The notes under the pieces: model-generated
Seen by the model: the letters and a program-made list of their open reading frames with translations, nothing else
Told to the model about the DNA's origin: nothing
Databases searched by the model: none
Part shown: in pieces, positions 2,172 to 64,000 of the stretch
Position numbering within the stretch: position 1 is the stretch's first letter
How the letters are laid out: each line of letters starts with the position of its first letter
Made by a program: the position numbers and the translations under genes
DNA from: Sabellastarte sp. h YS-2021
Lineage: Eukaryota; Annelida; Polychaeta; Sabellida; Sabellidae
Length of the DNA stretch: 64,000 nucleotides
Assembly (NCBI GenBank): GCA_964017235.1
Contig: OZ024931.1
Location: forward strand, 22,606,189 to 22,670,188
Direction: 5' to 3'

Positions 2172-3455
2172 CAAGATCACTGTCATGGCGTGTATCTCCT
2201 GCCGAGCATTAAAGGGGAAGAAATACCGTTTCCAAGATATTCACAATTTTCCATTTCCCTTTAAAATCCAACATGGCTGCCTCTTACCGTTTCCGAGATA
2301 TTTTCAATATTTTATGTTCCACTAAAATCCAAGATGGCCGCCAAAAGTGGCGAAAATTGAAATTTTTCCACTTTACACAGGATACTCTTGTACTACCCTG
2401 TGGGTCTAAATTTCGTTTGAAATCGCTCTATTTCTTATGGTCTTCGAGATATTCACACTTTTTCATTTTCCGCTAAAATCCAAGATGGCTGCCAAAAGTG
2501 GTGAAAATTGAAAATTTTCCCCTTTACCCAGGATACTCTTGTACTACCCTGTGGGTCAAAATTTCGCTCGAAAATCGCTCTATCTCTTACGGTTTTCAAG
2601 ATATTCACACTTTTTTATTTTCTGCTAAAATCCAAGATGTCCGCCAAAAGTGGCGAAAATTGAAAATTTTCCACTAGGGACAGGATACTCTTGTACTACC
2701 CTGTGGGTCAAAAATTCGCTCGAAATCGCTCTATCTCTTACCATTTCTGAGATATTTTCATTGTTTCATTTTCCACTAAAATCCAACATGGCCGCCAAAA
2801 GTGGCGAAAATTGAAATTTTTCGCCTTTGCATAGGATACTATTGTACTACCCTGTGGGTCAAAAATTCGGTTGAAATAACTCTATCTCTTACAGTTTTTC
2901 GAGATATTTGTCATTTTTCACATTTTCACTAAAAGTAGCAATAAAGTAGCCATTACTCACTTGTACATTGAGCAACAGGTGTGAAACTTAAATATGTTAC
3001 AGTTCACAAAAAAGTAGATGTACAACATATTTGAAAGAAACTGTGTAGCTGCAATATTTTTGATGATAGAAGCCATTTACTCATTATGGCTACCATTAAA
3101 AAGTGACAAAGTAGCTATTACTCAACTACGGAGATACACTTCCAAACTACTGACCAAGTTGTAGGTGCGGGAAAAGTACCTGAACAATATATTTGAAGAA
3201 AACACTATACATGCAATAGTTTGAGAGTTATAATCATTTTTGGCAAATGGGCTATTACTCACTCAAAATAGGCCAAAGTTCACAAAAACCAAAAAATACT
3301 GAAGGGCATAAAAATTCATTAGGACTAGTAATTTACCAAAAATATGTAACTGTAGCAATTTTGGAGGAAACTGCATGACAAACGCATGCACACACGGAGA
3401 TATGCACACACATGGTGCAAATGATAATCTCCCGCCGGCGCGCCGGGCGGGAGAT
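2172..3455 (-). mobile_element. K1: Helentron-like non-autonomous element with 151-bp minisatellite core
   Basis: The left end is CAAG followed by a weak hairpin and GTATCTCCTGCC. The core is a minisatellite. The right end is a GC-rich palindrome at 3427-3455 with arms ATCTCCCGCC and GGCGGGAGAT. The palindrome arm is an inverted copy of the motif beside the left hairpin, as expected of asymmetric terminal inverted repeats in Helentrons. The same head occurs at 11874 (K2) and, decayed, near 56820. No protein is encoded. The element lies in the MTHFD2 intron between the exons at 1200 and 3641. Flanks are A-rich (GAAA on the left, AAAAA on the right). Family assignment is inference; the end structures are seen directly. 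Confidence 0.6.
2240..2935. repeat. Minisatellite of K1, about 4.5 units of 151 bp
   Basis: The motif TACTACCCTGTGGGTC recurs at 2391, 2542, 2694 and 2845, giving a period of 151-152 bp. Each unit carries CAAGATGGCCGCC and the phrase AAATCGCTCTATCTCTTAC. It is a diverged relative of the 169-170-bp units of families F and P. Confidence 0.9.
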
Positions 3456-3640
3456 AAAAATATAACATGAAATGGATCAATAATCTACTGGTCTTATGAA
3501 TTATTTTTTATACTTTTGAAGACCACTCCATTTTTAAAATCAGCTTGTGCAGTAATAACACCAAAATATGGACACCAGCATCATTTTCTAACAAAAATCC
3601 CAACAAAACTGATATGCTTTGGTTCCACTCTTGTCCTTAC

Positions 3641-3773
3641 CTGAACGTTTGATCATCTCAATCACCCCAGCAGGAGTGGCTGGGACGAGGGAGTTGAGGT
3701 CACAGCAAAAACGCCCAACATTGACTACATTGAAGCCATCAACATCCTTATCTGGGACCACAGAGTTACACAC
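3641..3773 (-). CDS. MTHFD2: MTHFD2-like methylenetetrahydrofolate dehydrogenase, internal exon
   Basis: This 133-bp exon encodes VCNSVVPDKDVDGFNVVNVG and then RFCCDLNSLVPATPAGVIEM. PDKDVDGF is the conserved folate-site motif of the dehydrogenase/cyclohydrolase, and the PATPAGV segment matches the PATPWGV region of vertebrate MTHFD2. The acceptor (TGCGCAG) and donor (GTAAGG) are canonical. It enters in phase 0 from the exon at 6756-6898 and leaves in phase 1 into the exon at 1200-1307. No stop or frame problem is seen. Upstream and downstream introns contain P1 and K1 respectively. Confidence 0.95.
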
Positions 3774-4911: not shown

Positions 4912-6413
4912 CTAGAAATAGGACGCCCTGTTGATAGTAGCTGCGACATATGAATAGAAACAGGATAGCATAGAAGAACACACATTATCATGTGTAATGT
5001 CCACCCCATGAACCTTTTGCCAAAATTGTACAGTAGTCTTACAAGACCCTGTTTCATTTGAAAAATATATCAATGATGCTTAAATATTTATTAGTGTACA
5101 TGTAAATTATTTCAGCTTCATGCCTTTTCGCACTGGTTGGGTCGAAAATTTTGACGAAATCACTCTATCTTGGACGGTTAAGAAGATAGAAGCAAATTTC
5201 TGTTTTTCTATTTTTGGCAAAAATTTGAAAATTCAAAATGGCCTCCATTTTTGGGAAGAGGAAAATTTTTTGAAAATTGCCAAGAGTACATTTCTTAGAT
5301 ACCCTATGGGTCGAAAATTTCAACGAAATAACTCTATTTTGCACGGTTAAGGCAAATTTGTGTTTTTCCATTTTGGGCAAAAATTCGAAAATTCAAAATG
5401 GCCGCCATATGTGGGGAGGAGAAAATTTTTTTGAAAATTGCAGAGTACATTTCTTTGATACCCTGTGGGTCGAAAATTTCGACGAAATCGCTCTATCTTG
5501 CACGGTTAAGGAGATAGAAGCAATTTTGTGTTTTGCCATTTTGGGCAAAATTCGAAAATTCAAAATGGCCGCCATTTTTGGGGAAGGGAAAATTTTTTAA
5601 AAATTGCAAAGAGTACAATGCTCAGATACCCTGTGGGTTGAACATTTTGACGAAATCGCTCTATCTCGCACAGTTAAGGAGATAGAAGCAAATTTGTGTT
5701 TTGCCATTTTTGGCAAAAATTCGAAAATTCAAAATGGCCGCCATTTTTGGGGAGGGGAAAATTTTTTGAAAATTGCAAAGAGTACATTCCTTAGATACCC
5801 TGTGGGTTGAAAATTTCGACGAAATCACTCTATCTCGAACGGTTAAGGAGATAGAAGCAAATTTGTGTTTGCCATTTTTGGCAAAAATTCGAAAATTCAA
5901 AATGGCCGCCATTTTTGGGGAGGGGAAAATGTTTTGAAAATTGCAAAGAGTACATTCCTTAGATACCCTGTGGGTCGAAAATTTCGATGAAATCGCTCTA
6001 TCTCGCACAGTTTAGGAGATATGAGCACATTTGCCTTTTTCAGTACTCAAAATAGCCAATTACTCATTTATTTAATTAATTACTCACTCATCTATGAAGC
6101 AATTCCCCCCAAAAGCAATCCCATACAAGCTATTAACCCAATGAACCTCCATACCAAATTTCAGAAAGCTAGGCTTAATAGCATTCCTTAAAATGTCTGG
6201 AAACCAAAGAGATACTCAAAAGTAGCAAAGTAGCTATTACTCCGTTAGCCATAGAGCTATCATCACCAAAAGCAATCCCATACAAGCTATTAACCCAATA
6301 AACCTGCATGCCAAATTTGGTAAAGATAGGATAAGAACTGTTGCCTAAAATGTCTGGAAACCAAGTGTGACGCCGGAAAAAGCAAAATTAATATACCCCA
6401 GTGGGGTGGACAT
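4912..6413 (-). mobile_element. P1: Helentron-like non-autonomous element with 170-bp minisatellite core
   Basis: The left end begins CTAGAAATAGGACGCC (on the minus strand, ...CTAG followed by T, the canonical Helitron 3' terminus). The left flank contains the small hairpin CACAT-TATC-ATGTG near 4980 and then ATGTCCACCCC. The right end near 6400 carries the inverted partner GGGGTGGACAT. P2 has the complete right palindrome (TATGTCCACCC with GGGTGGACATA). The left 190 bp is nearly identical to P3 at 63285, which fixes this boundary. The right 350 bp (AATTACTCATTTATTTAATT onward) matches P2. It encodes no protein and lies in the MTHFD2 intron between 3773 and 6756. Confidence 0.65.
5110..6020. 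repeat. Minisatellite of P1, about 5 units of 170 bp
   Basis: Repeated phrases are TACCCTGTGGGTCGAAAA, GAAATCGCTCTATCTCGCAC and CAAAATGGCCGCCATTTTTG. Spacing between successive CCCTGTGGGT motifs is about 169-170 bp. Open reading frames across it are by-products of the repeat. Confidence 0.92.
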
Positions 6414-9963: not shown

Positions 9964-10424
9964 AGTGATAAAGAGTGTCAAAAGTCAGATGATCAGGACT
10001 TTTTCCCTTCAATGCCTGTGCCATTGATTCAAGTCATGTGAAACAAGAGGGTCAGAAATGCCCCAAAAGGCGAGCTGCGCAGGCAGCAATAAAGTTAGCG
10101 TGTGCTGGAATCAAATTTAGAAACAAGGAAAGAAACGTTAGGTCACCCAGTTAAGGTAAATGTGTTAGACACGCTAAGAAATCTAAAACTTGTAATCTAG
10201 GTTACATTATTGTATCTATGCTATACTAAATATAGGACTGAAACTAAGTAAGTGTAAAGCATTAATGTACCATAATATAATATTGCATGGCACCTAATCA
10301 CAAAAGATAATTTATTAAAGTAAGACATAGTATTACCATATCTACAGGATCGATGTATGGTAGATGTATGCAGAAAAAGGTGGTGACAGTGATCATGAAC
10401 ATACCAAAATTTGTTCATAATTTT

Positions 10425-11443
10425 TAGAGAACGGGCGGAATCACACCAATTTGGAAAGCAACTTAGCTATGATGGTGGTCTATCTCCCTGTCAATTTTGA
10501 ATTTGATTAGATAAAGTGTTTTCAAGTTAGAGTCAGGAAACGGAAACGTTGATGGACAGAGAAACGGACAAAAAGTGGACTAACCAACAGACGGAATTAC
10601 ACCAATTTCAAAAGCAACTTAGCTATGATGGTGATCTATCTCCCTGTCAAGTTTGAATTCGATTGGACAAAGCGTTTTCGAGTTACAGTCCGAAAACAAA
10701 AATGTTGATGGACCAAAATTTGTTCATAATTTTTAGAATCCTGTCAATTTTGAATTTGATTAGACAAAGCGTTTTCAAGTTAGAGTCCGGAAATGGAAAT
10801 GTTGACAGACTGACAAACGGACAAAAACGGACAAACAAATGGACGGAATTACACCAGTTTCGAAAGCAACCTAGCTATGATGGTGATCTATCTGCCCGTC
10901 AAGTTTGAATTCGATTGGACAAAGCATTTTGAGTTAGAGTCCGGAAACGAAAACGTTGACGGACAAATGAACGGACGGAAATACACCAATTTCGAAAGCA
11001 ACCTAGCTATGATGGTGATCTATCTCCCTATCAAGTTTGAATTCGATTGGACAAAGCATTTTCGAGATAGAGTCCGGAAACGGAAATGTTGACGGACAAA
11101 CAGTAAAAAACGGACAAACCAACAGATGGAATTACACCAAGTTCGAAAGCAACTAAGCTATGATGGTGATCTATCTCCTGTCAAGTTTGAATTTGATTGT
11201 ACAAAGCGTTTTCGAGTTAGGGTCTGAAAATGGAAATGTTCACAGACAGACAAACGGACAAATGAACGGACAAAATTACACCAATTTCAAAAGCAACCTA
11301 GCTATGATGATGATCTATCTCCCTGTCAAGTTTGAATTCAATCGTACACAGCGTTTTCAAGTTAGAGTCCGGAAACAAAAATGCTGACTGACAGATGTCG
11401 GACACATCAATCTAATAGGCAGGTTGGTTACACGCAACCTGCC
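10425..11443. mobile_element. M: minisatellite-bearing element fragment with terminal hairpin
   Basis: About six tandem units of roughly 130-155 bp share GAATTACACCAATTTC, AGCTATGATGGTGATCTATC and AGTTAGAGTCCGGAAAC. The array is followed at 11418-11443 by a hairpin with arms GGCAGGTTG and CAACCTGCC. This matches the 'array then terminal palindrome' layout of families K, F and H. A matching left head was not found, so the element is probably truncated. It abuts F1. Confidence 0.5.
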
Positions 11444-11873
11444 TGAAAAAGAAGTATGTAACTAGAGGATCGCTCGCAAAAAAAAAAGATAATGTTTTTG
11501 CATAGCAAAAACAAAGCGTCCCGAAAAGGATATAGAGGTGAGTGCTAAAGTATTAAGAAAATGCTTCGTTTCTAGCCTTATACTGTTGTGGCAATCAAAG
11601 TCAGCGCAGTCTGCTCTATCTAGCACGGTTTTCAAGATATAAGCATTTTTGTGTTTTGCAAAAAATAAAAAAATTAAAAATGTCCGCTATATTTGGCGAG
11701 ACAAAAATATTTTGAAAATTGGCATGGCTACTACTCGAGATACCCAGCAGGTCCAAAATTTTGTTGAGTTCGCTCCATATAGCACGGTTTTCGAGATATA
11801 AGCATTTTTGTGTTTTGCAAAAACTTTGAAAATTCAAAATGGCCACCATTTTTGGGGAGACAAAAATTTTTGT

Positions 11874-14231
11874 CAAGACCACTGCCGTGGTGTGTATCTC
11901 CCGCCGAGCATTAAAGCAGAAGAAATAGCTTTTCCGAGATATTCACAATTTTTCATTTTCGTGTGTGAAAGGTCTTCCAAAAGTAGGTGAATGAGTTATT
12001 TGAGAAAAATTGGCTATCTGCAATACTATTAAGAGATAATTCACATTTACTCATTTTGAGTAGGTGAATAATTATCTATGGGTCTGAAACTTCACCAAGT
12101 GAAAGCTCTCCCACAAGTAGGTGAATGAGTTATTTGAGAAAAATTGGCTATCTGCAATACTTTTAGAGATAATTCGCATTTACTCATTTTGAGTAGGTGA
12201 GTAATTAGCTATGGGTCTGAAACTTCACCATGTGAAAGCTCTCCCACAAGTAGATGAATGAGTATTTGAGAAAAATTGGGTATCCGCAATACTTTTACAG
12301 ATAATTAGCATTTACTCATTTTGAGTAGGTGAATAAATAGCTATGGGTCTGAAACTTCACAGAGTGAAAGCTCTCCCAAAAGTAGGTGAATGAGTTATTT
12401 GAGAAAAATTGGCTATCTGCAATACTTTTAGAGATAATTCACATTTACTCATTTTGAGTAGGTGAATAATTAGCTATGGGTCTGAAACTTCACCAAGTGA
12501 AAGCTCTCCCAAAAGTAGGTGAATGATTTATTTGAGAAAAATTGGCTATCTGCAATACTTTTAGAGATAATTCGCATTTACTCATTTTGAGTAGGTGAGT
12601 AATTAGCTATGGGTCTGAAACTTCACCAAGTGAAAGCTCTCCCAAAAGTAGGTGAATGAGTTATTTGAGAAAAATTGGCTATCTGCAATACTTTTAGAGA
12701 TAATTCGCATTTACTCATTTTGAGTAGACGAGTAATTAGCTATGGGTCTGAAACTTCACCAAGTGAAAGCTCTCCCAAAAGTAGGTGAATGATTAATTTG
12801 AGAAAAATTGGCTATCTGCAATACTTTTAGAGATAATTCGCATTTACTCATTTTGAGTAGGTGAGTAATTAGCTATGGGTCTGAAACTTCACAGAGTGAA
12901 AGCTCTCCCAAAAGTAGGTGAATGAGTTATTTGAGAAAAATTGGCTATCTGCAATACTTTTACAGATAATTCGCATTTACTCATTTTGAGTAGGTGAGTA
13001 ATTAGCTATGGGTCTGAAACTTCACCAAGTGAAAGCTCTCCCAAAAGTAGGTGAATGATTTATTTGAGAAAAATTGGCTATCTGCAATACTTTTACAGAT
13101 AATTTGCATTTACTCATTTTGAGTAGGTGAGTAATTAGCTATGGGTCTGAAACTTCACAGAGTGAAAGCTCTCCCAAAAGTAGGTGAATGAGTTATTTGA
13201 GAAAAATTGGCTATCTGCAATACTTTTAGAGATAATTCGCATTTACTCATTTTGAGTAGGTGAGTAATTAGCTATGGGTCTGAAACTTCACCAAGTGAAA
13301 GCTCTCCCAAAAGTAGGTGAATGAGTTATTTGAGAAAAATTGGCTATCTGCAATACTTTTAGAGATAATTCACATTTACTCATTTTCAGTAAGTGAGTAA
13401 TTAGCTATGGGTCTGAAACTTCACAGAGTGAAAGCTCTGCCAAAAGTAGGTGAATGAGTTATTTGAGAAAAATTGGCTATCTGCAAAACTTTTACAGATA
13501 ATTCGCATTTACTCATTTTGAGTAGGTGAGTAATTAGCTATGGGTCTGAAACTTCACCAAGTGAAAGCTCTGCCAAAAGTAGGTGAATGAGTTATTTGAT
13601 AAAAATTGGCTATCTGCAATACTTTTAGAGATAATTCGCATTTACTCATTTTGAGTAGGTGAGTAATTAGCTATGGGTCTGAAACTTCACCAAGTGAAAG
13701 CTCTCCCAAAAGTAGGTGAATGAGTTATTTGAGAAAAATTGGCTATCTGCAATACTTTAAGAGATAATTCGCATTTACTCATTTTGAGTAGGTGAGTAAT
13801 TAGCTATGGGTCTGAAACTTCACCATGTGAAAGCTCTCCCACAAGTAGATGAATGAGTTATTTGATAAAAATTGGGTATCCGCAATACTTTTATAGATAA
13901 TTAGCATTTACTCATTTTGAGTAGGTAAATAATTAGCTATGGGTCTGAAACTTCACCATGTGAAAGCTCTCCCAAAAGTAGGTGAATGAGTTATTTGAGA
14001 AAAATTGGCTATCTGCAATACTTTTAGAGATAATTCGCATTTACTCATTTTGAGTAGGTGAGTAATTGGCTATGGGTCTGAAACTTCACCATGTGAAAGC
14101 TCTTCCAAAAGTAGGTGAATGAGTTATTTGAGAAAAATTGGCCATCTGCAATACTTTTAGAGGTAATTCGCATTTACTCTTTTTGAGTAGGTGAGCAATT
14201 AGCTATGGGTCTGAAACTTCACCAAGTGAAA
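11874..14231 (-). mobile_element. K2: K-family element nested inside an F1 monomer
   Basis: The head CAAG-ACCAC-TGCC-GTGGT-GTGTATCTCCCGCC is a clear terminal hairpin followed by the K subterminal motif, and it closely matches the K1 head. It is followed by GAGCATTAAAG as in K1. The rest is the 133-bp minisatellite. The element begins and ends inside a 169-bp F monomer (left GACAAAAATTTTTGT, right TTGGGATAGCTGCTCTG), so it inserted into F1. Its far palindrome is missing, so this end is truncated. Confidence 0.55.
11965..14231. repeat. Minisatellite array, about 17 units of 133 bp
   Basis: TCTGAAACTTCACCAAGTG recurs at 12481, 12614 and 12747, giving an exact 133-bp period that continues to the end. 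Each unit holds AAAAATTGGCTATCTGCAAT and CATTTACTCATTTTGAGTAG. Units differ by only a few bases, and alternation of CACCAAGTG, CACAGAGTG and CACCATGTG variants suggests higher-order expansion in blocks. Confidence 0.95.
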
Positions 14232-15505
14232 GCTCTTTGGGATAGCTGCTCTGCAGAGATACCCTGAAGATAAAAAATTTCGTTGAAATCGCTCTATGTA
14301 GCACGGTTTTCGAAATATTAGCATTTTTGTGTTTTGCAATTTTTGCGCAAAAATTCGAAAATTCAAAATGGCCGCCATTTTTGGCAAGAGAAAATTTTTT
14401 TGAAAATTGGCATGGCTACTCTGCATAGATACCCTGTGGGTCAAAAATTTCGTCGAAATCGCTCTATCTAGCACGGTTTTCGAGATATAAGCATTTTTGT
14501 GTTTTGCAATTTTGCGAAAAATTCGAAAATTCAAAATGGCCGCCATTTTTTGCAAGAAATTTTTTGTTTGAAAATTGGCAGCTACTCTCCAGAGATACCC
14601 TGCGGGTCAAAAATTTCGTCGAAATCGCTCTATCTAGCAGGGTTTTCGAGATATAAGCATTTTTATGTTTTGCAATTTTTGCGAAAAATTCGAAAATTCA
14701 AAATGGCCGCAATTTTTGGCGAGACAAAAATTTTTTCAAAATTGGGATAACTACTCTGCAGAGATACCCTGTGGGTCAAAAATTTCGTCGAAATCGCTCT
14801 ATCTAGCACGGTTTTCGAGATATAAGCATTTTTGTGTTTTGCAATTTTTGCGAAAATTTCGAAAATTCAAAATGGCTGCCATTTTTGGCGAGACAAAAAT
14901 TTTTTGAAAATTGGGAAAAGTACTCCGCAGAGATATCCTGCGGGTCAAAAATTTTGTCGAAATTGCTCTATCTAGCACGGTTTTTGAGATATAAGCATTT
15001 TTGTGTTTTGCAATTTTTGCGAAAAATTCGAAAATTCAAAATGGCCGCCATTTTTGGCGAGATAAAATTTTTTTCAAAATTGGGATAACTACTCTGCAGA
15101 GATACCCTGTGGGTCAAAAATTTCGTCGAAATCGCTCTATCTAGCACGGTTTTCGAGATATAAGCATTTTTGTGTTTTGCAATTTTTGCGAAAATTTCGA
15201 AAATTCAAAATGGCCGCCATTTTTGGCGAGACAAAAATTTTTTGAAAATTGGGAAAAGTACTCCGCAGAGATATCCTGCGGGTCAAAAATTTTGTCGAAA
15301 TTGCTCTATCTAGCACGGTTTTTGAGATATAAGCATTTTTGTGTTTTGCAATTTTTGCGAAAATTCAAAATGGCCGCCATTTTGGGCGAGACAAAAATTT
15401 TTTGAAAATTGGGAAAACTACTCCGCAGAGATACCCTGCGGATCAAAAATTTCGTCAAAATCGCTCTATCTAGCACGGTTTTCGAGATATAAGCATTTTT
15501 GTGTT
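14232..15505. repeat. Minisatellite of F1, about 7.5 units of 169 bp
   Basis: Units share GAAATCGCTCTATCTAGCAC, GAGATATAAGCATTTTTGTG and CAAAATGGCCGCCATTTTTG. The period is 169 bp (for example 14665 to 14834). About 1.5 more units lie left of K2 at 11610-11873. One two-unit block is repeated almost exactly (14760-15090 against 15098-15330), a sign of recent two-monomer duplication. Confidence 0.93.
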
Positions 15506-15902
15506 TTCCTTATTTGGAAAATTCGTAATGATTAATTAATCATTAATTACTCGGCCATTTCTTGACCAATCAATGCCAAAATCTAATGATTTCCAGATTT
15601 TAATAGAATGAATGTATTTGCCAAGTTTCAGGTGAATTGATAAAATTCCTTTCAAGTTATCATCCGGACAAGCTTCCCCATCGAAAAAAGACATTTTTGG
15701 TCATGTGACCTCTCTGATTGGTTGAAATGTCACTGCAGCATATTCAAAAAAATTCCCCAAGGCTACTGCCTAAACCTGCCAAATTTGAAAATAATCCGCC
15801 TAACGGTTACAGAGTTATAAGGAAAACAAAATGCGGAGCCGGCGGAGCCGGCGGAGCCAGAAGCTCTCCCATACACAAACAAGCGTCCCTTGCGGGACGC
15901 TT

Positions 15903-16795: not shown

Positions 16796-16846
16796 CTATT
16801 AGACCCCTAGTAAGCTGATAGCGGGGTCGGTGGGAGGGTCTTGCGT

Positions 16847-20378: not shown

Positions 20379-20482
20379 GACAATTTACATTTAGGTTTAA
20401 CTGAGTGTTCATTGTCTGTCTTGGTAGTGGGGGCAGGTCCCCGGCCAGCAGTCGTAGCTGTACTCTGGGTACACAGTGATTG

Positions 20483-25369: not shown

Positions 25370-25854
25370 CTAGACCTATAGCATCGGAGAACTGATGCAA
25401 ATTGCATCCACCAGAAAACTCACAAAAGCCATTAAAACATGCTTAACCTTGGAGCTTTGACCTTGAAAGAGGGGTCCAAGGTCAAATCTGACCACACCAA
25501 AAGAATCCAGGCCAATGATTTCCTATATGTTGGTTTACCATCCCAAACCTGTAGGACAATAATAAGCGAGTTATAAGCACTTTTAAGTTTGGCTATCCTC
25601 GTTTGACCTTGTAGGAGGGGTCCAAGGTCAAATCCGACCACACCAAAAGATTCCCGGCCCATGATTCCTATATGTTGGTTTACCATCCCAAACCTCTAGG
25701 ACCGATAATAAGCGACCTATAAGCACTTTTCATGACTGATAAAGAAACGCCTGTGGCGGCCATGTTTTTTTTTTTTTTTTTTTCAAAATGAGGACCCAAA
25801 TATTTCCAGTCAAGATTTTATAATGAGGAACATATCCTGCTGTCCGGTGGATAC
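25370..25854 (-). mobile_element. H2: internally deleted H-family element inside E2
   Basis: The head CTAGACCTATAGCATCGG with its hairpin, two to three 147-bp units, and the right-end half palindrome TCCGGTGGATAC are all present. The surrounding sequence is 155-bp E minisatellite on both sides. Confidence 0.7.
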
Positions 25855-43215: not shown

Positions 43216-43216
43216 T

Positions 43217-50940: not shown

Positions 50941-51254
50941 TTAATGCATTAAAAATTATTAAAAAAATTTATTAAAAACAAGAGGAGAGTGCCCGTGAAC
51001 GGGCACTGTGTCAGCTGACTGAATGTTTTTGATTTGTGATGGTGATAATGAGAGGAAAGCATAATTATCAGGGAAAGGGCTGTACAGAAATACAGTAAAT
51101 GGTAACTGAACAGCATGTTCGAAAGATATTCCGAAGCTGACAGAAAAAAAGGACAAAAAAGTTGTGCCCTGCAAATGGTATTATGAAATAAAGTAACAAG
51201 GTAATTGTTTAAGAGTAAAAAGTAGGTTAAAAATATTTAAAGAAATACTATAAA

Positions 51255-52080
51255 TGCAATATCCTCGTTCGACCATGAAGAAGGGGTCCAAAGGTCAAAT
51301 CTGACCATACCAAAAGATTCCCAGCCAAAGAATTTAGGATGGTTTACCATCCCAAACCTCTCGGACCAATAATAAGTGAGTCATAGGCACTTTTTAAGTT
51401 TGGCTATCCTTGTTTGACCTTGACGGAGGGGTCCAAGGTCAAATCCGACCACACAAAAAAATTCCCAGCCCATGATTTCCTGTAGCTTGTTTAGTATCCC
51501 AAACCTGTAGGACCAATAATAAGCGAGTTCTAAGCAATTGTAAGTTTGGCTATCCTCAATTGACCTTGAAGGAGGGGTCCCAGGTCAAATCTGACCACAC
51601 CAAAAGAATCCCAGCCCATGATTTCCTATATGTTGGTTTACCATCCCAAACCTCCAAGACCAATAATACGCGAGTTATAAGCACTTTAAGTTTGGCTATC
51701 TTCGTTTGACCTGGAAGGAGGGGTCTAAGGTGAAATCTGACCACACCAAAAGATTCCCAGCCCATGATTTTCTATAGGTTGGTTTTCCATTCCAAACCTC
51801 TAGGACCAATAATAAGCGAGTTATAAGCACTTTTAAGTTTGGCTATCCTCATTTGACCTTGAAGGAGGGGTCCAAGGTGAAATCCGACCACACCAAAAAA
51901 TTCCCAGCTCATGATTTTCTATAGGTTGGTTTTCATTCCAAACCTCTAGGACCAATAATAAGCGAGTTATAAGCACTTTTATGTTTGGCTATCCTCATTT
52001 GACCTTGAAGGAGGGTTCCAAGGTCAAATCGGACCATATTAACAGATTCCCAGCCCATGATTTCCTACAGGTTGGATACA
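51255..52080 (-). mobile_element. H4: relict H-family element inside E1b
   Basis: About 5.5 units of 147 bp run from CCTCGTTCGACCATGAAGAA to GGTTGGATACAATGATTTAC. Both H ends are lost apart from GGATAC. It shares its left junction with H3, so the H passenger was already in the E copy that gave rise to both. Confidence 0.65.
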
Positions 52081-54610
52081 ATGATTTACTCAACAGTGAG
52101 AACCTGAAAGAAGCTATTGCTCAGCTATGCCATGACATAGAGGTCTGCAATTTCACTATGTTATAGCTGACCAAAACGTCTGTGAATAACATATTTAACA
52201 AAATACTCTAAATGTAATAGTTTTCAAGTTACTACTGATTTACTCAAGAGTGAGAACCTCAAAGTAACTATTACTCAGCTATGCAATGAGCTACATGTCT
52301 GAATTTTTGCTCTGTTATAGCTGACCTAAAAGTAGGTGAACAACATATTTAAGCAAAATACTGTAAATGCAATAGTTTTCAAGTTACAACTGATTTACTC
52401 AATAGTGAGAACCTGAAAATAGCTATTGCTCCGCTATGCCATGAGCTATAGGTCTGTAATTTCACTATGTTATAGCTAACCCAAAAGTAGGTGAACAATA
52501 TATTTTAACAAAATACTCCAAATGCAATATTTTTCAAGTTATAGCCGATTTACTCAACAGTCAGTGCCTGAGAATAGCTATTGCTCAGTTGTGCCATGAG
52601 CTACAGGTCTGTAATTTCACTATGTTATAGCTGACCCAAAAGTAGCTAAATAACATATTTGCACAAATTTCTGTAAAGGCAATAGTTTTCCAATTACAAC
52701 TGATTTACTCAACAGTGAGAACTTCAAAGTAGCTATTACTCAGCTATGCAATGAGCCACAGGTCTGGAACTTCACTATGTTATAGCTGACCCCAAAATAG
52801 GTGAATAACATATTGCAACAAAATACTCTAAATGCAATAGTTTCCAAGTTATAAGTGATTTACTCAACAGTGATAACCTAAAAGTAGCTATTACTCAGCT
52901 ATGCCATGAGCTACAGGTCTGAAATTTTACTATGTTATAGCTGACCCAAAAGTAGCTGAACAACATATTTATACTAAATTCTCTAAATGCAATAGTTTTC
53001 AAATTATAAGTGATTTGCTCAACATTGAGAACTTCAAAGTAGCTATTACTCAGCTATGCAATGAGTCACAGGTCTGGAACTTCACTATGTTATAGCTGAC
53101 CCCAAAATAGGTGAATAACATATTGAAACAAAATACTCTAAATGCAATAATTTCCAAGTTATAAGCGATTTACTCAACAGTGATAACCTCAAAGTAGCTA
53201 TTACTCAGCTATGCCATGAGCTACAGGTCTGAAATTTTACTGTGTTATAGCTGACCCAAAAGTAGGTGAATAACATATTTAAGCAAAATACTGTACATGC
53301 AATAGCTTTCAAGTTACAACTGATTTACTCAATAGTGATGACCTAAAAGTAGCTATTACTCAGCTATGCCATGAGCTACAGGTCTGAAATTTTACTATGT
53401 TATAGCTGACCCAAAAGTAGCTGAATAACATATTTATACTAAATTCTCTAAATGCAATAGTTTTGCAATTACAACTGATTTACTCAATAGTGAGAACCTC
53501 AAAGTAGTTATTACTCAGCTATGCAATGAGCTACAGGTCTGAAATTTTACTATGTTATAGCTGACCCAAAAGTAGGTGAACAACATATTTAAGCAAAATA
53601 CTGTAAATGCAATAGTTTTCAAGTTACAACTGATTTACTCAATAGTGATGACCTAAAAGTAGCTATTACTCAGCTATGCCATGAGCTACAGGTCTGAAAT
53701 TTTACTATGTTATAGCTGACCCAAAAGTAGCTGAATAACATATTTATACGAAATTCTGTAAATGCAATAGTTTTCCAATTACAACTGATTTACTCAATAG
53801 TGAGAACTTCAAAGTAGCTATTACTCAGCTGTGCCATGACCTACAGATCTGAAATTTCACTATGTTATAGCTGGCCCAAAAGTAGCTGAATAACATATTT
53901 ATACGAAATTCTCTAAATGCAATAGGTTTTAAGTTACAAGTGATTTACTCAATAGTGAGAACTTCAAAGTAGCTATTACTCAGCTATGCAATGAGCCACA
54001 GATCTGAAACTTCACTATGTTATAGCTGATCCCAAAATAGGTGAATAACATATTGAAACAAAATACTGTAAATGCAATAGTTTCCAAGTTATAAGCGATT
54101 TACTCAACAGTGATAACCTAAAAGTAGCTATTACTCAGCTATGCCATGAGCTACAGGTCTGAAATTTTACTATGTTATAGCTGACCCAAAAGTAGCTGAA
54201 TAACATATTTATACGAAATTCTCTAAATGCAATAGTTTTGAAGTTATAAGCGATTTACTCAACAGTGATAACCTAAAAGTAGCTATTACTCAGCTATGCC
54301 ATGAGCTACAGGTCTAAAATTTTACTATGTTATAGCTGACCCAAAAGTAGCTGAATAACATATTTATACGAAATTCTCTAAATGCAATAGTTTTTAAGTT
54401 ACAAGTGATTTTACTCATGATGGAAGTTACTGAAAAGCCCAAAAGTAGCTATTACTCACTTAGCTATTGAGACAGGCACCCAACTTACTCACCATATTGT
54501 AGCTATGAAAAAAGTAGCTGAATAACATATTTTAACAAAATGCTCTAAATGCAACACTTTTCAAGTTATAAATGATTTTGTGCATGATTTCATGAATTTT
54601 AATGCATTAA
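52081..54610. repeat. E1b minisatellite, about 16 units of 155 bp
   Basis: The period is about 155 bp (ACCTAAAAGT at 54116 and 54271). Several three- to four-unit blocks recur in the same order, so the array has expanded by multi-unit duplications. Confidence 0.93.
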
Positions 54611-57269
54611 AAATTATTAAAAAAATGTATAAAAAAAAAAGTAAGACAGATCCAGGTCTCATACTCACACAAGAGAATCTACCTGTGGCCTAGTACATAT
54701 ATGCAAGATATGAGAGAAATCCCTGCAATAGTCACTGAGAAAATTGTGATTAAGTGTTGAAATTTTCACACTTTTGGTGGGGGTACCCCCCTTGTAATGT
54801 CTCTAGCAAACAGACGAACAGACAGATTTGCATGCCATGAACAATTTTTCATCCTCGATAGATAAGGTATCTTTTAAAAAAAACAGCACGTCTCTAGGCC
54901 TTGTAGTTTTGGAGAAGAAGTTGTTCACGCGGACGCGTACGCGGACGCCCACGCCGCAGAGTGACGACATAATGTCAGCTGACTGACATAAAAAAGTAAG
55001 ACAGATCCAGGTCTCATACTCACACAAGAGAATCTACCTCTGGCCCAGTACATATATGCAAGATATGAGAGAAATCCCTGCAATAGTCACTGAGAAAATT
55101 GTGATAAAAAGTTGAAATTTTCACACTTTTGGTGGGGGTACCCCCCTTGTAATGTCTCTAGCAAACAGACGAACAGACAGATTTGCATGTCTTGAACAAT
55201 TTTTCATCCTCGATAGATAAGGTATCTTTTAAAAAAAACAGCATGTCTCTAGGCCTTGTAGTTTTGGAGAAGAAGTTGTTCACGCGTACGCCCACGCCGC
55301 AGAGTGATGACATAATGTCAGCTGACTGATAAGTCAGCTGACATAAAAAGCAGATGAACTTACCAAACAGGCCTTGAATTTTAATGTTTTAGACTTGAAA
55401 GTCCCCTATACAGACTTGAAAGTGAATGTAAATAGCATTTTTAAACAAAAGTGGCAAGCTCAATGGAATGCGTGTCCTGATAACAAGCTATTCCAAATAA
55501 ACCCTACAGTAGGAGATTTTTAAGTTTGGACGGGTTTATCTCATAGGGAGGAAATAGTTATTACTCGAGCCCGTATAGGACACACTTATTTCACCCATAG
55601 TTATCTATTAAAAGGTGAGGATATGCCCTGGTGCAATCCATGTCATTGTCCTGATACAGTGAAACACATAATACTGGACTGTATTGACCTACGTGACACG
55701 AGAATTAAATATTATAGAAATGTTAGTACAATGGAAAAATTATTTAGTGAAAATGTTTTTAATATCATTAATTATTTAAAAGAATGTGGCCTGTTTAAAA
55801 AGTTTTAATTAAATTATTTTGTGTTTTGTCCTTAATGTTAATTTATTCTGTAATATCTAGTCTTGATTCGTGTTGTTCTGTGATATTGATCTATACTTTA
55901 TTTTTACACTTTATTTTGTTTGTTATGTATTATTGATTGTGATTTTTTACATTGTTTATTCTAGTCATTTCGTATAATCTTGTTTTTTTGTTTGTTATTT
56001 TTGCCACTTTTTAATTATTTGTTTATATATGTCTGTGAATATTAGTTAATGTATTTATAGTAGTTAATGTTTTTATAGTGCAGTATAACGCATTAGTGTT
56101 GTTGCACTGAAAATTTTAAATATCTTATCTTATCTAGATGAAATGTAAGACTAGTAACAACTTATCTAAAGAGATATGGTCTTTAATATACAAAATCTGT
56201 TTTATGGTGACAACAGATAATTCAACCATGTGGTTTCAATAAAAATTGATAAATAATATATTAGCTACCCAGAGCTCCCTGTTTTAATCTTAAGATTACA
56301 GATTCATGTCTATGTGACATATGTGGTAGTAGTGTGGAAACAATTCAGCATTTGATCACACAATGTAGTACTGTTTAAACACTATGGTCTAGCATTCTAT
56401 AATGGATAAAAGAAACAAGCAATCAGTGCCCGTGAATGGGCTGTGTCAGCTGACTTTGTATTTTGAGCCTCAGAGTACAAGTGAAAGTATAAAAGCTGCA
56501 AGTGGTTTTGAGAAGTGAAGTATACATTTAACTGTCATGGTGTTTCCAAAGTAGCTACTGAGGACATAGTTCATAACAAACATAGAGAGTTGAAAAAGTA
56601 GGTGCATAGTGACTGCCACCCTTTAATAATGATAATATATGGGTTTTGTAAATTTTGAAGTCAAAAGAAGGGCTTACTAAAGGAACCTGAGTTTTGAGAA
56701 GATACATAACTGCTTTAGAATAAGCACATGGATAGAGTACTTCAGGTACACACGGAAGGCATATTTTAGAATTTAATGAATGAAATATGGATTATAGTGT
56801 TGAGAAAACAAATGCGATCAAAACCACTGTTGTGGTGTTTATCTCCTGCTGGATATTAAGGAAAAATGGAGGTAGTGTGACCATGAAACTGGGGTCAAAG
56901 TCCAAGAAGCAATAACAAGATAAAAGACCTTTGCAATCTGATAAACTAAATGAACTTTGAAGCAACCCTATGAACCAGCAGATGTAACATATGCCAAAAT
57001 CACTATGTTTTTTTGTGCATTTTCCATGCCACAAAAATTCAAGACCGCTGTCAGAATTTAAATTTTTTCCAAAATTTGAGTTTTACATGCTCCCAACTCT
57101 TCAGCAATCTTTAGAGGATTTCCCACTTGAACTAAAATACGTTAAATTTAGATGTCTAACTGAAATGGGAAAAAGTATAAAAAAAACCCATACTTTTGAG
57201 AGAACAGCATACACAGGCATAATAAAGCTCAGTGAAAGTGAACCTTCCCATTTATTTTGATTTTCTTAC

Positions 57270-57400
57270 GTGTTACCGAACACATATGTAAGACAGAAGA
57301 GATACACATCAATACAAATCTTCTACCCCCTCTCAACTACACTGAACACTGAAGGTAGCAACACACAGACACAAACACACACACCTGTACCCATCTCCCC
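57270..57400. repeat. CA-rich simple sequence
   Basis: ACACACAGACACAAACACAC and neighbouring words form a degenerate CA microsatellite near 57358-57390. Confidence 0.6.
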
Positions 57401-57599
57401 ACTCCGTACGCACAGAGGCAATTCTTATCTGTACTGCAGTTTGTGTGATTGATGGGGAGTGAGGGGGAATTGTCTGTACAAATCAACAATGTATAGTTTT
57501 TTATGTAACAATTAATTATGTAATGAGCTGCAAGTCTGAAATTTTACTATGTTATAGCTGAAAGAAAAAATAAGTGAAAAACATATTTACCAATATGCT

Positions 57600-58630
57600 C
57601 TAAACGTAATTCTGCAAAAAGTACAGGTCTCTCTGGAGCATATGGGATAAAGTTTTCCTGTGGCAGGCTAATGTCCTCTGTTGGATATGGACACTCTTGT
57701 CAAGGACCTCCAAATAGTTATATGTTTGCCATAGGTACTTTTTAATGATCCTTTCTGGGGCAACCCCTTTTTGAATTTGGTTCTTGCAATACTTGACAGT
57801 AGCTTTGATGCTGCCCTGCAGTTTACCAAAATGTAACATTGTAAAATAATCTGGTTGAAGGCAGCTGAAAAATTGAGGGTACATATATTTTGTCTAGCTT
57901 AGTGTTAAAATTGTTTGACTATCTGTGGGGGGCATTTCCCCACATAGCTGCTGAGGGCCTAGGATAAATGCATATTTTAGCAGTCACTATTTAAGTCCTC
58001 CATCTTCTCTTCAAAGCAGGCATCTACCATGTAGTACCACTTCCCTGTGGCTTGGGCAGGTTTAATAAATTTCCCTTTAGAGAGGTTGACCATGTTGAAG
58101 TATGTTCAAACTTCTCTAGGGCTTTAGGGAGGGATTGGCAGGGAGAAAGGTAGAAAACTCCTCAGGCCCAAGTTCCTGTTTCTGAGCAACTGCGTTCAGG
58201 CCCAAGATTGAGGTTGAGAACACTGGCATGCTTTCCCTGGGATCATGGATATTAAGGACTTGTCCAAACATTTCTATGTCCTCAGTGTATTGGGAGGGCA
58301 AGTTATTAATATATACTTCCCTAGATACGATAGTCACTACTAGAGACCGATAGTACGCTTGTGCTGAGGATTCAAGTTCCTGTTGCGAACCCCAAAACAT
58401 GGGTACCCCTGCCTCAGGATCACCCAAGAGTTTGGACTCTTCCAATTTATGACCTTTTCTTTGATACATCAGAGATTGACTGGCAAACAAAGCAAATACC
58501 ACTGCCATTAACACAGAGGTCATCACCATTTCCTGCCTCTCTCAGGTGGGGCAATAATTGTATAAGCTAAAACAATGAGGTGACTTTAAAGCCTGAGGCT
58601 TACTGGGGTTTGATTGTCGAGCAGACATGC
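57600..58630 (-). pseudogene. Unidentified coding-like block inside E3
   Basis: Two minus-strand open frames, 58116-58529 (137 codons) and 57600-57884 (94 codons), lie in a segment of more balanced base composition than the satellites around it. The first begins MVMTSVLMAVVFALF, a hydrophobic stretch, and continues with a polar region rich in Glu, Gln and Ser (GSQQELESSAQAYYRSLV, SQYTEDIEMFGQVLN). The second contains LHFGKLQGSIKATVKYCKNQ. I do not recognise either. The block interrupts E-family minisatellite on both sides, so it arrived by insertion. It may be a piece of another element, a processed gene fragment or a captured host segment. Confidence 0.3.
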
Positions 58631-58677
58631 TGCCTGCCTGGTAAATATGCTGTTTAAAAAATTGAATTTAAGGAAAA

Positions 58678-59652
58678 CTAGACCTAGCGCATCGGAGAAC
58701 CGATGCAAATTGTATCCACCAGAAAGAAAACTCACCAGAGCCAATCAACCATTGCTTAACCTTGAAGGTGCCCAAGGTGAAATCTGACCACATCAAAAGA
58801 TTCTTAGCCCATGATTTCCTGTAGCTTGGCGTGACATTGCAAACCTCTAGGAACATGAATAAGCGAGATATAAGCTTTTAATTTTGGCTATCCTCATTTG
58901 ATCTCGAAAGAGGGGTCCAAGGTCAAATCTAACCACACCAAAAGATTCCCAGCCCATGATTTCCTATAGGTTGGTTTACATCCCAATCATCTAGGACCAA
59001 TAATAAGCGAGTTATAAGCACTTTTAGGTTTGGCTATCCTCGTTTGACCTTGAAGGCAGGGTCCAAGGGCAAATCCAACCACACCAAAAGATTCCCAGCC
59101 CATGATTTTCTATAGGTTGGTTTTCCATTCCAAACCTCTAGGACCAATAATAAGCGAGTTATAAGCACTTTTAAGTTTGGCTATCCTTGTTTGACCTTGA
59201 AGGAGGAGTCAAAGGTCAAATCTGACCACACCAAAAGATTCCCAGCCCATGACTTCCTATAGGTTGGTTTACCATCCCAAACTTCTAGGACCAATAATAC
59301 GTGAGATATAAGCACTTTTCATGACTGACAAAGAAACACCCGTGGCAGCCATGTTGTTTTTCAAAATGAGTCCAAAAATATTCCCAGTCAAGATTTTTTA
59401 ATGACGAACATATTTGAGATCTATACCTAGAATACCCTTTGCTCTACGGGGCCAACAAAAGTCCTTGCTTTAAGTCGAATAAACGTCCCTGGCAGTCATC
59501 TTGTTTTTCAAAATGAGGCCAAAAATATTCCCAGGCAACATTTTATGGTTATTAATATATCCTGCAAACTTGAGAAGGCTAGCTATAATATTTTTTTCGT
59601 TAGAGTGGTAATGGTGAAATCTCTCTACACACTGCGGCTATCCAGTGGATAC
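58678..59652 (-). mobile_element. H5: H-family element inside E3
   Basis: The head CTAGACCTAGC, the perfect hairpin GCATCGG-AGAA-CCGATGC and GTATCCACC are intact. There are about four 147-bp units and two successive copies of the right segment (GGCAGCCATGTTGTTTTTC and GGCAGTCATCTTGTTTTTC). The right end is the same decayed CTATCCAGTGGATAC as in H3. Confidence 0.72.
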
Positions 59653-60640
59653 AATGATTTACTCAACAGTGAGAACCTGAAAGTAGCTATTGCTCAGCTA
59701 TCCCATGACATACAGGTCTGCAATTTCACTATGTTATAGCTGACCAAAAATTACGTGAATAACATATTTAAGCAAAATACTGTAAATGCAGAAGTTTTCA
59801 AGTTACAACTGATTTACTCAATAGTGAGAACCTGAAAATAGCTATTGCTCAGCTATGCCATGAGCTATAGGTCTGTAATTTCACTATGTTATAGCTGACC
59901 CAAAAGTAAGTGAACAACATATTTTAACAAAATACTGTAAATGCAATATTTTTCAAGTTACAACTAATTTACTCAACAGTCAGTACCTGAAAATAGCTAT
60001 TGCTCAGCTGTGCCATGAGCTAAGGTCTGTAATTTCACTGTGTTATAGCTAACCCAAAAGTAGGTGAACAACATATTTAAACAAAATACTGTAAATGGAA
60101 TAGTTTTCGAGTTATAACTGATTTATTCAACAGTAAGAACCTGAAAATAGCTATTGCTCAGCTATGTAATGAGCTATATCACTGGCAATATCACTATGTT
60201 ATAGTTGACCAAAAATTAGGCGAATAACATATTTAAACACATACTCTAAATGCAATAGTTTTCAAGTTAGAAATGATTTACTCAACAGTGATCACCTCAA
60301 AGTAGCTATTACTCAGCTATGCACTGAGCTACAGGTCTGAAATTTCACTGTGCTGTAGCTGACCCAAAAGTAGCTGAATAACATATTATACAAAATTCTG
60401 TATATGCAATAATTTTCAAGTTATAGGTGATTTTACTCATTATGGGAGGTACTGAAAAATCAGAAAGTAGCTATTACTGACTTAGCTATTGGAATAGACA
60501 CTCGAGTTACTCAGCATGTTGTAGCTATGAAAAAGTAGTTGAATAACATATTTTAACAAAATGCTCTAACTGCAATACTTTTCAAGTTATAAGTGTTTTA
60601 GTGCATGATTTCATGAATTTTATAGCATTAAAAATTATTT
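59653..60640. repeat. E3 minisatellite, about 6 units of 155 bp
   Basis: Same unit as the E1 and E2 arrays (TAGCTATTGCTCAGCTATG, TTTCACTATGTTATAGCTGA), with more divergence between units. Confidence 0.88.
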
Positions 60641-61070
60641 TAAAAATTAATTTAAAAAAAATTAAGACAGATCCAGGTATAATTCTCACAAAAGGTAATC
60701 TACTAGTGGCCTAGTATATATATGCAAGATATGAGAAAAATCCCTGTAATAGTGAATGAGAAAATTGTGATAAAGGGTTGAAATTTCCACACTTTGGGTG
60801 GGGGTACCCGACTTGTAATGACTCTGGGGAACAGACGAACGAACAGATCTGCATGGCCTTAACAATTTTTAATCCTCGATATTTAAGGTATCTTTTAAAG
60901 AAACAGCAGGTCTCTGGGTATTGTAGTTTAGGAGAAGTTGTTCACTCGGACGCCCACACCGCAGAGTGATGACATAAAAATGAATATCAACAATATGTAT
61001 ATTCACTAATAAAGGTAAAGAAACATCTCTGATGAAATTTGTGCTCAGCAACACGAAGATAGAAGTTGTG

Positions 61071-63284
61071 TACTATATAATCATCTAGATCACTTCAGGG
61101 CTTTTAGTACTGCCACTGAACAGGCGACTCAGTCACTACCTGCTCATGTTTCTTAAGTTGGCAGCGCTGCAAGTGGCCTCCCAAGTTAGCACTTAGTCCC
61201 AGATGGTAAGCCATTGTGGCGCAATAAAATAATGTATCTCCAACCCATTTTATTTTGATTATACAGCTAGATCTTTCATGGAAAATAATTCTATCCATTT
61301 TGTTGATTACAGCAGTCCAAAAGACCATGGATAGGCTCTCTGTAGTTGTCTATGCATCCATTCGGGCACTCGACACACATCTGAAGCAGTAGTTTTAGTG
61401 TTCAAACTAGTGGTATCATTATTTGACAGAGCTAAGGTTCAATGTCACACCTAACCAATGTTCCTACAAAGTATCAACTTCCAATGCATTACAGTTTCTG
61501 AGGTATAGTCCAGATAAGATTTTAAAGGGGTCAAGGTCACTACAGCAAGGTCAAATCAAGGTCACACCATGACATTGCACACCTACACCCTCCAACCAAT
61601 GTCCTTACAAGTATCAAATTTCTATACCTTATGGTTTCTGAGATTTTAAAGGTCAAGGTCACTACAGCGGTAAGGTCAAATCAAAGTTACACCATGGCAT
61701 TGCACACCTACACCCCCAACCAATGTCCCTACCAAGTATCAACTTCCTACGCCTTAAAGTTTCTGAGATACAGTTGATAGAATTGATCAACTTAGACTGA
61801 TCAAACAAAAGGCTTGGGCACATGCATTTCCCAAAGTTCTTTATTTTTAGAATCATATTTTTGCAACTCAGGACCCGATTCTCATGGGTAACCCGCAGGC
61901 CAAAGCAGCACATGAATAAAAAGCTTTACTGATAACAACACAATCAAATGAAAACTTTACAATACCTTTACTTGATGTTTATACACATATTTTAGTCTAC
62001 ATAGCACTGTTTACTACACAATAAACACAATTGGGATACAAAATTATTATTTTCTTGTTTTATGTAAATAAGTATTGACCCATTATAAAGAGTCTACCTC
62101 CTCCACCTTTTCAAGGGGAAAGAGATTATTTCTATATTTTTTTTTTATTTTCGAAAATCAATGGACATCTTACAAACTTTTTTGTACTGAGTGATCTTGA
62201 TTTGTTACAGAATTGCTCTTTAACTTGATGTTTGTGCTGATGAAACTTATGATTTACCATGAAAAGCAGCATATAATGTCTGATCAATTTATATTACTTA
62301 AATACAGTTCCTTTTCTCTCTTTGTTGAATCATGTCTGCGAATCAATGACTTAACTCGGTAAAATATTACACTTAGTGACCACTAGTACATACAACTGAT
62401 TATATATTTAAAGAAAGATTGCTTTCGTATCTACAAGGAAGTTTGCTGACACTTTTAGATATGGAATATGTAACATTTTTGTTGACAACCTGCATTACAA
62501 AAATAGAAACAACACAAAACAATGTAAACAAAACCAATACTATACTGCAAATGAAAGCTTTTTTTGTGCAATGCAATATAATGTTTCTCTTATTCTATCT
62601 CCACTTTTACATGATAATTTTGTTTAATGGCAACTCAATGCATTACAAATAAGTACATTTCACCACTCTCAAAACATCACCAATCTTTACTTACAACTGC
62701 GCACAAAAGACTCATCAGTTAATGCTTGATATTACACTTGTAAATTTACGGGACTTTTCACATAAAATTGGAGCATTTTCCCTTTTTAATATTTTTGAAA
62801 TCAAATTACAATACAGTGAGCATACTGGGTCAATGGAAAATGATTTTAGGAAGGGTTCCAGCATTCACAATATATACTTTGCAAGAGTACATCTGTTTGC
62901 TTGCTTTGTTCAATGTCGTGATGGACTTGTAGAAACCCCTGTATGGAGCAGACACCAGTGATGCAAGCTACAGCGATAGCTCACACTCTTATACTTTCTG
63001 GAAATATCCTAAAATGTTATCTAGAAGTGTCAATCTTGATTTTTGTCCACAGCTGTTCAGGCTAAAATGACAACGTAATACAGATTACATACACAGAAAC
63101 AAGATGGATGACTGAACCAGACAATGAGGTACAGATGACAGAACTCCTGCATAGAATAGTAAAATATTACTGGCCTGTTACAAGTTGATCCAGGGTTTAT
63201 TTATATCATGAAAGAAAAACATTATGAAGGACCACATTGAATCAGCAAGTAACTCAATCCACAGCTTCAGTGCTGATAGTGTAA
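61071..63284. other. No supported gene; decayed tandem repeat
   Basis: At 61430-61770 a unit of roughly 120-130 bp (CAAGGTCACTACAGCAAGGT, CCAACCAATGTCC) is repeated about three times. A relative lies at 7980-8150. Short open frames nearby show no domain. Confidence 0.45.
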
Positions 63285-64000
63285 CTAGAAATAGGACGCC
63301 CTGTTGATAGTAGCTGTGACATATGAATAGAAACAGGATAGCATAGAAGAACACACATTATCATGTGTAATGTCCACCCCATGAACCTTTTGAAAAAATT
63401 GTACAGTAGTCTTACAAGACCCTGTTTCATTTGTAAAATATATGAATGATGCTTAAATATTTATTAGTATACATGTAAATTACTTCAGCTTCATGCCTTT
63501 TTGCATTGGTTGGGTCGAAAATTTCGATGAAATCGCTCTATCTCGCACGGTTAAGGAGATAGAAGCAAATTTGTGTTTTGCCATTTTTGGCAAAAATTTC
63601 AAAATTCAAAATGGCCGCCATTTTTGGGGAGAGGAAAATTTTTTTGAAAATTGCCAAGAGTACATTGCTCAGATACCCTGTGGGTCGAAAATTTAGACGA
63701 AATCACTCTATCTCGCACGGTTAAGGAGATAGAAGCAAATTTGTGTTTTGCCATTTTTGGCAAAAATTCGAAAATTCAAAATGGCCGACATTTTTGGGGA
63801 GGGGAAATTTTTTTTGAAAATTGCCAAGAGTACATTTCTCTGGGGGGGGGGGGGGTCGAAAATTTCGAAAAAAAATCGCTCTATCTCGCACGGTTAAGGA
63901 GATAGAAGCAAATTTGTGTTTTTCCATTTTTGGCAAAGTAGCTAAGTAGCTATTACTCAGTCAGTTATATAGCTATTATCACTAAAAGCAATCCCAAGCA
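63285..64000 (-). mobile_element. P3: P-family element, runs off the window
   Basis: CTAGAAATAGGACGCC and the following 190 bp are nearly identical to P1. About 2.5 units of 170 bp follow, then the start of the P right part (AGCTATTATCACTAAAAGCA). One unit contains a run of 13 G near 63842. The far end lies beyond 64000. Confidence 0.7.

Follow-up and report, generated by a model that had tools for sequence, protein, structure and literature searches.

The 64,000-nucleotide stretch of Sabellastarte sp. DNA analysed here (C5:22606189-22670188, in a genome of 1.79 Gb and 647 contigs) is referred to as the window and contains copies of six families of repeat elements, designated K, P, F, H, E and Q. 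These are very probably HINEs (non-autonomous Helentrons) lying on the minus strand, elements that would be mobilised by a partner protein and may be inserted in a polarised manner. In the window and on one chromosome, members of these unrelated families are mostly co-oriented when they lie within ~30-50 kb of each other, and it is this feature which is interpreted below.

Repeat families of the window and their layout

The layout was described over window positions 2172-64000, with 5′ and 3′ used in the polarity derived in the next section. A previous reading based on sequence alone (the sequence-only reading) had proposed one blueprint for five families, K, P, F, H and E, namely a CTAG or CAAG end on the left followed by a hairpin, a family-specific motif X, one or more tandem arrays and a terminal palindrome made from X. 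This blueprint, closing with X-loop-X′, stands for K, F, H and E within single copies, whereas for P it is complete only once its copies are combined. P copy 1 has lost its first palindrome arm, while the complete palindrome is on copy 2, the other (3′) end of which was not found. F is a composite, as nearly identical F-K spacing recurs in loci L037 and L049, and it has a K-type 3′ end internally. Between 48 and 55 kb the E copies are truncated and in part arranged in tandem, with their 3′ ends preceding the 5′ ends (Table 1). Family Q, which has the same layout, had been overlooked.

Inverted subterminal inverted repeats (subTIRs) occur at both ends, within single copies for K, F, H and E, across copies for P, and also in Q and its Helentron (see below). 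The repeat complementary to the 5′ subTIR and the 3′ hairpin are likewise present, the exceptions being P copy 1, the K hairpin at 2172, which is decayed, and Q, where folding of the end gave no simple 3′ hairpin. Computed with RNA energy parameters, the folding energy of the terminal palindromes lies between -16 and -23 kcal/mol in K, F, H, Q, copy 2 of P and copy 1 of E, and is only -8 kcal/mol for the shortened E end at 54973. The hairpins of the opposite end give -12.4 (E), -11.7 (H), -8.3 (F), -7.3 (K end at 11874) and -4.5 kcal/mol (P). Core repeats are common to E and H, to F and P, to E and F, and to K with each of E, F and P, always in one strand sense.

Table 1. Elements of the six families in the window (position 1 is the first nucleotide of the window)
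Feature	Position	Strand	Details
Family K	2172..3455	-	3′ end CAAG at 2172; decayed 3′ hairpin; X ~2193; ~151 bp cores; 5′ subTIR and inverted repeat forming palindrome 3427-3455
Family P copy 1	4912..6413	-	3′ end CTAG at 4912; hairpin ACACA..TGTGT; X 4997; ~168 bp core; second palindrome arm only (6404-6413)
Family Q	10044..11445	-	3′ end CAAG at 10044; 5′ subTIR and inverted repeat forming palindrome 11416-11445; relative of apparently autonomous Helentron C3:168.667-168.679 Mb
Family F	11462..15902	-	3′ end CTAG at 11462; hairpin TGTTTTTGC/GCAAAAACA; X 11514; 133- and 169-bp arrays
Further details of F		-	GCGGAGCCG repeat 15833-15858; 5′ palindrome 15881-15902
K-type 3′ end within F composite	11874..11916	-	
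Family P copy 2	23880..24898	-	intact 5′ palindrome 24870-24898
Family E copy 1	25098..27284	-	nested H-type 3′ end at 25371; 5′ palindrome 27257-27284
Family H	31601..34297	-	3′ end CTAG at 31601; hairpin GCATCGG/CCGATGC; X 31635; 147-bp array; 5′ palindrome 34270-34297
Family E tandem copies	48334..55343	-	3′ ends 48334, 50979; 5′ ends 54973-54988 (shortened), 55316-55343
Mixed E/H stretch	56413..60977	-	E-type 3′ end 56413; H-type 3′ end 58678; 147- and 155-bp arrays; partial E 5′ end 60947
Family P copy 3	63285..64000	-	3′ end CTAG at 63285; 5′ end ~0.3 kb past the window (L061:259-310)

The sole host gene identified in the window is an MTHFD-like gene (1150-7580, minus strand), with exon matches near 7.5 and 1.2 kb and, identified by eye, another stretch near 6.8 kb; K and P sit in its introns in the sense direction. 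Positions 15907-23750 are occupied by a DIRS-like retroelement with open reading frames (ORFs) resembling, by eye, reverse transcriptase and tyrosine recombinase, another copy of which is interrupted by an H element in locus L042. A tRNA-derived short interspersed nuclear element (SINE) with a AAGCGACGTAAAACCCCAAATAAA tail is found at 39904, 41552 and 44256, in both orientations; the genome contains 4371 exact matches to a 21-mer of it. No Pfam match was obtained for four ORFs at 57.6-58.5 kb, and one of these gave nothing significant in a PDB search. Elsewhere, a tRNA scan gave two tRNA-Val calls in locus L048.

Helentron partners and element boundaries

A search of the genome for a Rep-helicase element with the ends of a window family, which had been suggested as a check, was successful, the family in question being Q. 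The Pfam domain Helitron_like_N matches 24 places in the genome. One of these (L051, C3:168671501-168681500) has a 2237-aa ORF which begins with an Ulp1-type protease domain and possesses DUF6570, Helitron_like_N, PIF1 and a C-terminal Exo_endo_phos domain. HUH Rep and PIF1 helicase are thereby combined in one protein, and HUH and YxxxY motifs are visible in its sequence. Upstream of its Rep ORF, the element has another ORF of 222 aa (L052:522-1190).

When the 3′ flank of this element was compared with the genome, 3927 candidates emerged, of which 40 are scored matches with identities of 97-100%. Two were set aside, the locus of the query itself and a match that stops at 670; the remaining 38 stop at positions 689-709 of 1251, in 32 cases at 689-694, and the common 3′ stop lies just past ...CCTCTTG/TT. 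Five near-identical copies, the query counted, extend over 2.7 kb upstream. The 5′ end was read from the sequence of one element, the pile-up of copies having been applied at the 3′ flank; it consists of TTTTTAGGCGGGTTGCGTGTAACCAACCCGCCTA, after which come a GTCY microsatellite and 187/164-bp repeats. Its palindrome carries AGGCGGGTTGCG, and the 3′ end of the element has a 12-bp inverse of the subTIR. The left end of Q in the window is 84% identical to the Helentron 3′ end over 230 bp, and its right end is 80% identical to the Helentron 5′ end over 533 bp. On these matches, a recent and apparently autonomous Helentron of the same genome shares both ends with Q.

The same matches fix the polarity, the end first read as left being the 3′ end and the palindrome the 5′ end, so that the elements run from right to left in the window and not in the direction originally assumed. 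The reversal is direct for Q, and would apply to K, P, F, H and E by virtue of the same layout, from which we also infer their membership of the group. The palindromic right end had been considered non-standard, which was wrong, as it corresponds to the published 5′ end of HINE/DINE-1 elements (subTIR plus complementary repeat). An inverted repeat near the 5′ subTIR is described for DINE-1/HINE (PMC4067079) and a hairpin at both termini for Helitron2 (PMC5148889), and a palindromic end is therefore standard. The families are ordinary HINEs of an already known kind; the sequence-only reading was right in its suspicion of non-autonomous, Helentron-type elements, which the layout, the partner of Q and the lack of target duplication in H support, but it had read them upside down.

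Of the 24 Rep matches, the Q-type Helentron was read to both of its ends; from the other 23, at least three of them further copies of this Helentron, seven were read over 3 kb each. One of these seven, a decayed Helentron with internal stops (C5:143.54 Mb), has the 18-nt P 3′ subTIR ~1 kb past its endonuclease ORF, where the subTIR adjoins a truncated P 5′ end, and on this sequence is a probable partner of P. Loci L057 and L055 have, by eye, an endonuclease-like ORF in common, while none was seen in the 3 kb read of L058. Between the endonuclease domains of six Rep/helicase loci, two of which are partial, pairwise identity is only 20-32%. Because of this divergence and of the family-specific nature of X, one transposase for all families, as had been proposed, appears unlikely, and that candidate was rejected; one mechanism for all of them is likely.

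Patterns of the 3′ ends, allowing up to three mismatches, were counted across the whole genome (forward plus reverse strand) for H (1842+1838=3680), P (4738+4602=9340), E (6117+6080=12197), Q (745+794=1539) and F (4684+4575=9259). Each of these five families is thus divided ~50:50 by strand genome-wide, and the reversed patterns used as control gave no match for any of them.

Boundaries and empty sites were examined in the H family, in 20 loci all taken from exact H 3′-end matches on C1. The complete palindrome, scored with up to three substitutions, is present in 17/20, the right terminus GATACAAT in 18/20, and AA directly before CTAG in 19/20; no intact H right end was seen within the stretch read of L047 and L049. 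The position of the ends was another suggested check, and in most of these H copies the boundaries fall on CTAG at one side and on the palindrome at the other. Joined-flank queries from 16 H copies, run against the sampled loci and the window sequence, matched across the junction in four cases, the other 12 giving none. The empty sites are a DIRS-like copy at window 18770-18924 (for L042; 157 bp, 85%), adjacent units of the locus's own tandem repeat (L033), an uninterrupted repeat in L036 (for L037) and a 67 bp match in L041 (for L039). None of the four shows a target duplication of 5 bp, in agreement with the expectation that no consistent duplication of this size would be found; the H junctions read AA/CTAG, corresponding to a TT target.

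Two of the sampled H loci have further features. In L042 (361-6579), H carries a 42-copy 147-bp array with one frame open over most of its length; the open frames return with a period of 1764 bp (12 units), which suggests higher-order repeats. In L045 (221-3543), H lies ~70 bp inside the 3′ end of an F element and P starts at the H 5′ junction, forming a head-to-tail chain.

Strand co-orientation of unrelated families

All families in the window had been said to lie in one orientation, and this is borne out by 23/23 end matches, 15 of which are the sources of the end library itself (oriented by layout) and eight of which are further copies. Two more ends within 10 kb either side of the window agree. 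Ends of foreign families are found in 7/20 H loci, and 16/16 such ends agree with the strand of H.

On C1, the first exact (youngest) places listed were used for H (100), P (100), E (100), F (100) and Q (51), the 49 listed Q places on C2 being left out. Cross-family pairs lie on the same strand in 69/76 cases below 30 kb (40/45 at 10-30 kb alone), in 33/42 at 30-50 kb, 215/345 at 50-200 kb, 95/176 at 200-300 kb and 155/337 at 300-500 kb, co-orientation being down to chance by ~200-300 kb. When same-family copies within 100 kb were flipped together as a null, the mean was 38 and the maximum 57 in 2000 runs, compared with the 69 observed. There are 46 bins of 200 kb with pairs, of which 40 are all-same, one is all-opposite and five are mixed. 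Some co-oriented domains span hundreds of kb, chosen examples being 6.80-7.17 Mb (10/10 plus; E, P, H, F), 24.66-25.05 Mb (15/15 minus; E, F, P, H) and 9.49-10.747 Mb (18/19 minus).

A screen of the sampled loci for a control repeat gave none in at least four loci at the first thresholds, and lower thresholds gave several, including the tRNA-type SINE mentioned above. A 62-nt pattern of it was too sparse for local pairs and a shorter one was taken, with the first 100 exact places (C1 0-54 Mb). Below 30 kb, same-strand pairs make up 3/8 for SINE-SINE and 4/14 for SINE-HINE; the co-orientation of the HINEs is not seen with the SINE, though these are small numbers. Below 100 kb, SINE-HINE pairs are on the same strand in 17/57 cases, a weak opposite tendency, and with the nearest HINE only (<50 kb) in 8/19.

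A possible insertion polarity and comparison with known systems

On the minus strand of the window, the order of an element would be a T-rich 5′ junction, the 5′ subTIR (X) and its complement as a hairpin, a microsatellite, the tandem core, the 3′ subTIR (X′), the 3′ hairpin, CTAG/CTTG and host TT. Each family may be moved in trans by a Helentron Rep/helicase/endonuclease protein recognising its own X, with the 3′ hairpin and CTAG/CTTG as termination mark, after which the transferred strand would enter a TT site without target duplication. X would then act as a recognition code, in a series of rolling-circle steps. Missing target modification has been considered consistent with a single-stranded intermediate (PMC4067079). 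If the target were also single-stranded, strand preference would follow the exposed strand, and co-orientation could then result from insertion into single-stranded DNA of which one strand is exposed by replication forks or transcription. A further-reaching reading, to which we give a probability of about 0.5, is that the insertion strand is set by local chromosome polarity, most likely by whichever strand replication forks (or transcription) leave single-stranded, and that HINEs form a fossil strand map. As to the cause, replication suits the longest domains of hundreds of kb, and transcription suits the steep drop past 30-50 kb and the MTHFD-like gene with K and P in sense direction in its introns.

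Of these causes, replication is rather less likely than not and transcription a little less likely still, another or mixed origin having even odds. Several points weigh against the account as a whole, from HINE identity to co-orientation. The pairs are not independent, and co-orientation is based on C1 (0-147 Mb) and the window region (2172-64310) only. Mixed stretches occur on C1, e.g., 17.3-18.6 and 25.4-25.9 Mb, and an old element (73% identity) ~7 kb beyond the window lies opposite. The evidence for boundaries and empty sites covers H only, where the exact join is ambiguous by up to ~3 bp. The Exo_endo_phos domain of the Helentron scores 21.4 bits in the whole ORF, below the cut-off of 24.5, and 27.7 bits when searched alone, with no PDB sequence match up to E 0.1. 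A complete autonomous partner for K, P, F, H or E was not found among the Rep loci read, and of the seven further Rep loci just one probably has the end of a window family at its own 3′ terminus.

In a rival view, the families would be cut-and-paste elements of the miniature inverted-repeat type (MITEs) with terminal inverted repeats. Such a view might appeal to X and X′ being inverted at the two ends, and to bivalve relatives having first been named MITEs (Pearl; PMC7492417). It is nevertheless highly improbable in the face of the four H empty sites without target duplication, the asymmetric ends, the CTAG/CTTG end and a Rep/helicase element bearing the ends of Q, and was rejected. Co-orientation could also have arisen secondarily, through duplication of HINE clusters (segmental or by unequal crossover) or through read-through composites moved as one unit. 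The core repeats shared between families in one strand sense, the recurrence of the F-K composite, the partly tandem E copies and the start of P directly at the end of H in L045 are all as such duplication would leave them. We regard it as unlikely as the explanation, since spacings between elements vary, family pairs without a core match between window elements still agree in 27/34 cases below 50 kb (37/45 when P-E, with 35 bp in common, is added), and the null in which neighbouring same-family copies were flipped together never reached 69.

A different possibility is that orientation follows strand asymmetry of the target, the need for oligo-T drawing one orientation to T-rich strands. Barley Helitrons are reported to prefer an asymmetric target (PMC5738225). 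In the non-HINE DNA of the window the plus strand has 380 A-runs to 304 T-runs (runs of at least 4), and the immediate left flanks of H are A-rich (67 vs 37 runs). The AT skew is only 0.017 in the non-HINE DNA of the window and 0.023 over 70 kb of sequence to the right of H elements, however, which was judged too weak for 40/45 agreement at 10-30 kb. With a skew of ~0.02 the T-rich strand was rejected as sole cause, and the explanation as a whole seems improbable, more so than duplication.

If insertion strand does follow local chromosome polarity, the tens of thousands of HINEs of this genome would amount to a strand map that can be read with no experiment, in which unrelated families have domains of tens to hundreds of kb in common. 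Should strand domains be genome-wide, Helentron insertion in animals would depend on polarised single-stranded DNA. HINE orientation would then reveal, also in non-model animals, how replication or transcription is polarised along the germline genome, and a mechanistic question on rolling-circle transposons would become testable by sequence alone.

Cross-family co-orientation is not reported in the literature found on Helitron and Helentron orientation (including PMC4067079, PMC7492417, PMC5148889, PMC5371812, PMC2575219, and PMC5738225), as far as its accessible text goes and with subscription papers not covered. The closest counterparts of the families described here are the 11 Cg_HINE elements of the oyster Crassostrea gigas, for which a left 5′ subTIR with complementary inverted repeat and microsatellite, satellite-like cores, and a right 3′ subTIR with palindrome are described (PMC7492417). 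Both sets also have in common oligo-T sites without target duplication, a fixed relative orientation of core and flank, and several families per genome. The oyster elements differ in that integration in both orientations is reported, with no mention of local co-orientation in the text available. In addition, no autonomous partner could be related to Cg_HINE according to that account, whereas here one Helentron appears to share both ends with Q, a link which the oyster study could not make for its own families.

DINE-1/HINE elements and Helentrons resemble the present ones in having a Rep/helicase/endonuclease partner, subTIRs, a 3′ stem-loop and TT insertion without target modification (PMC4067079). 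Clusters of adjacent elements are mentioned in the same paper for related Helitrons, distantly related ones being found close together in bat and maize. The 3′ ends here are CTAG or CTTG, while CTAG is given there for proto-Helentron-Pi only, and the spacing between the ends and the subTIR or hairpin is not quite the same. A CTAG/CTTG terminus on a Helentron that bears an endonuclease may represent a minor variant. Fusarium Helitron2 likewise forms composite and self-inserted elements with terminal hairpins, but in the description available the fungal elements lack an endonuclease domain, and FoHeli termini and insertion sites differ (PMC5148889). As for orientation, IS608-type elements prefer the lagging-strand template, so that their orientation follows replication (PMC5371812). 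If polarised insertion holds, the HINEs would be comparable to the IS200/IS605 elements IS608 and ISDra2 of that report, both in single-strand transposition and in an orientation which records replication direction. The latter are prokaryotic and have a different transposase, and the link to replication in the HINEs is proposed by analogy with them.

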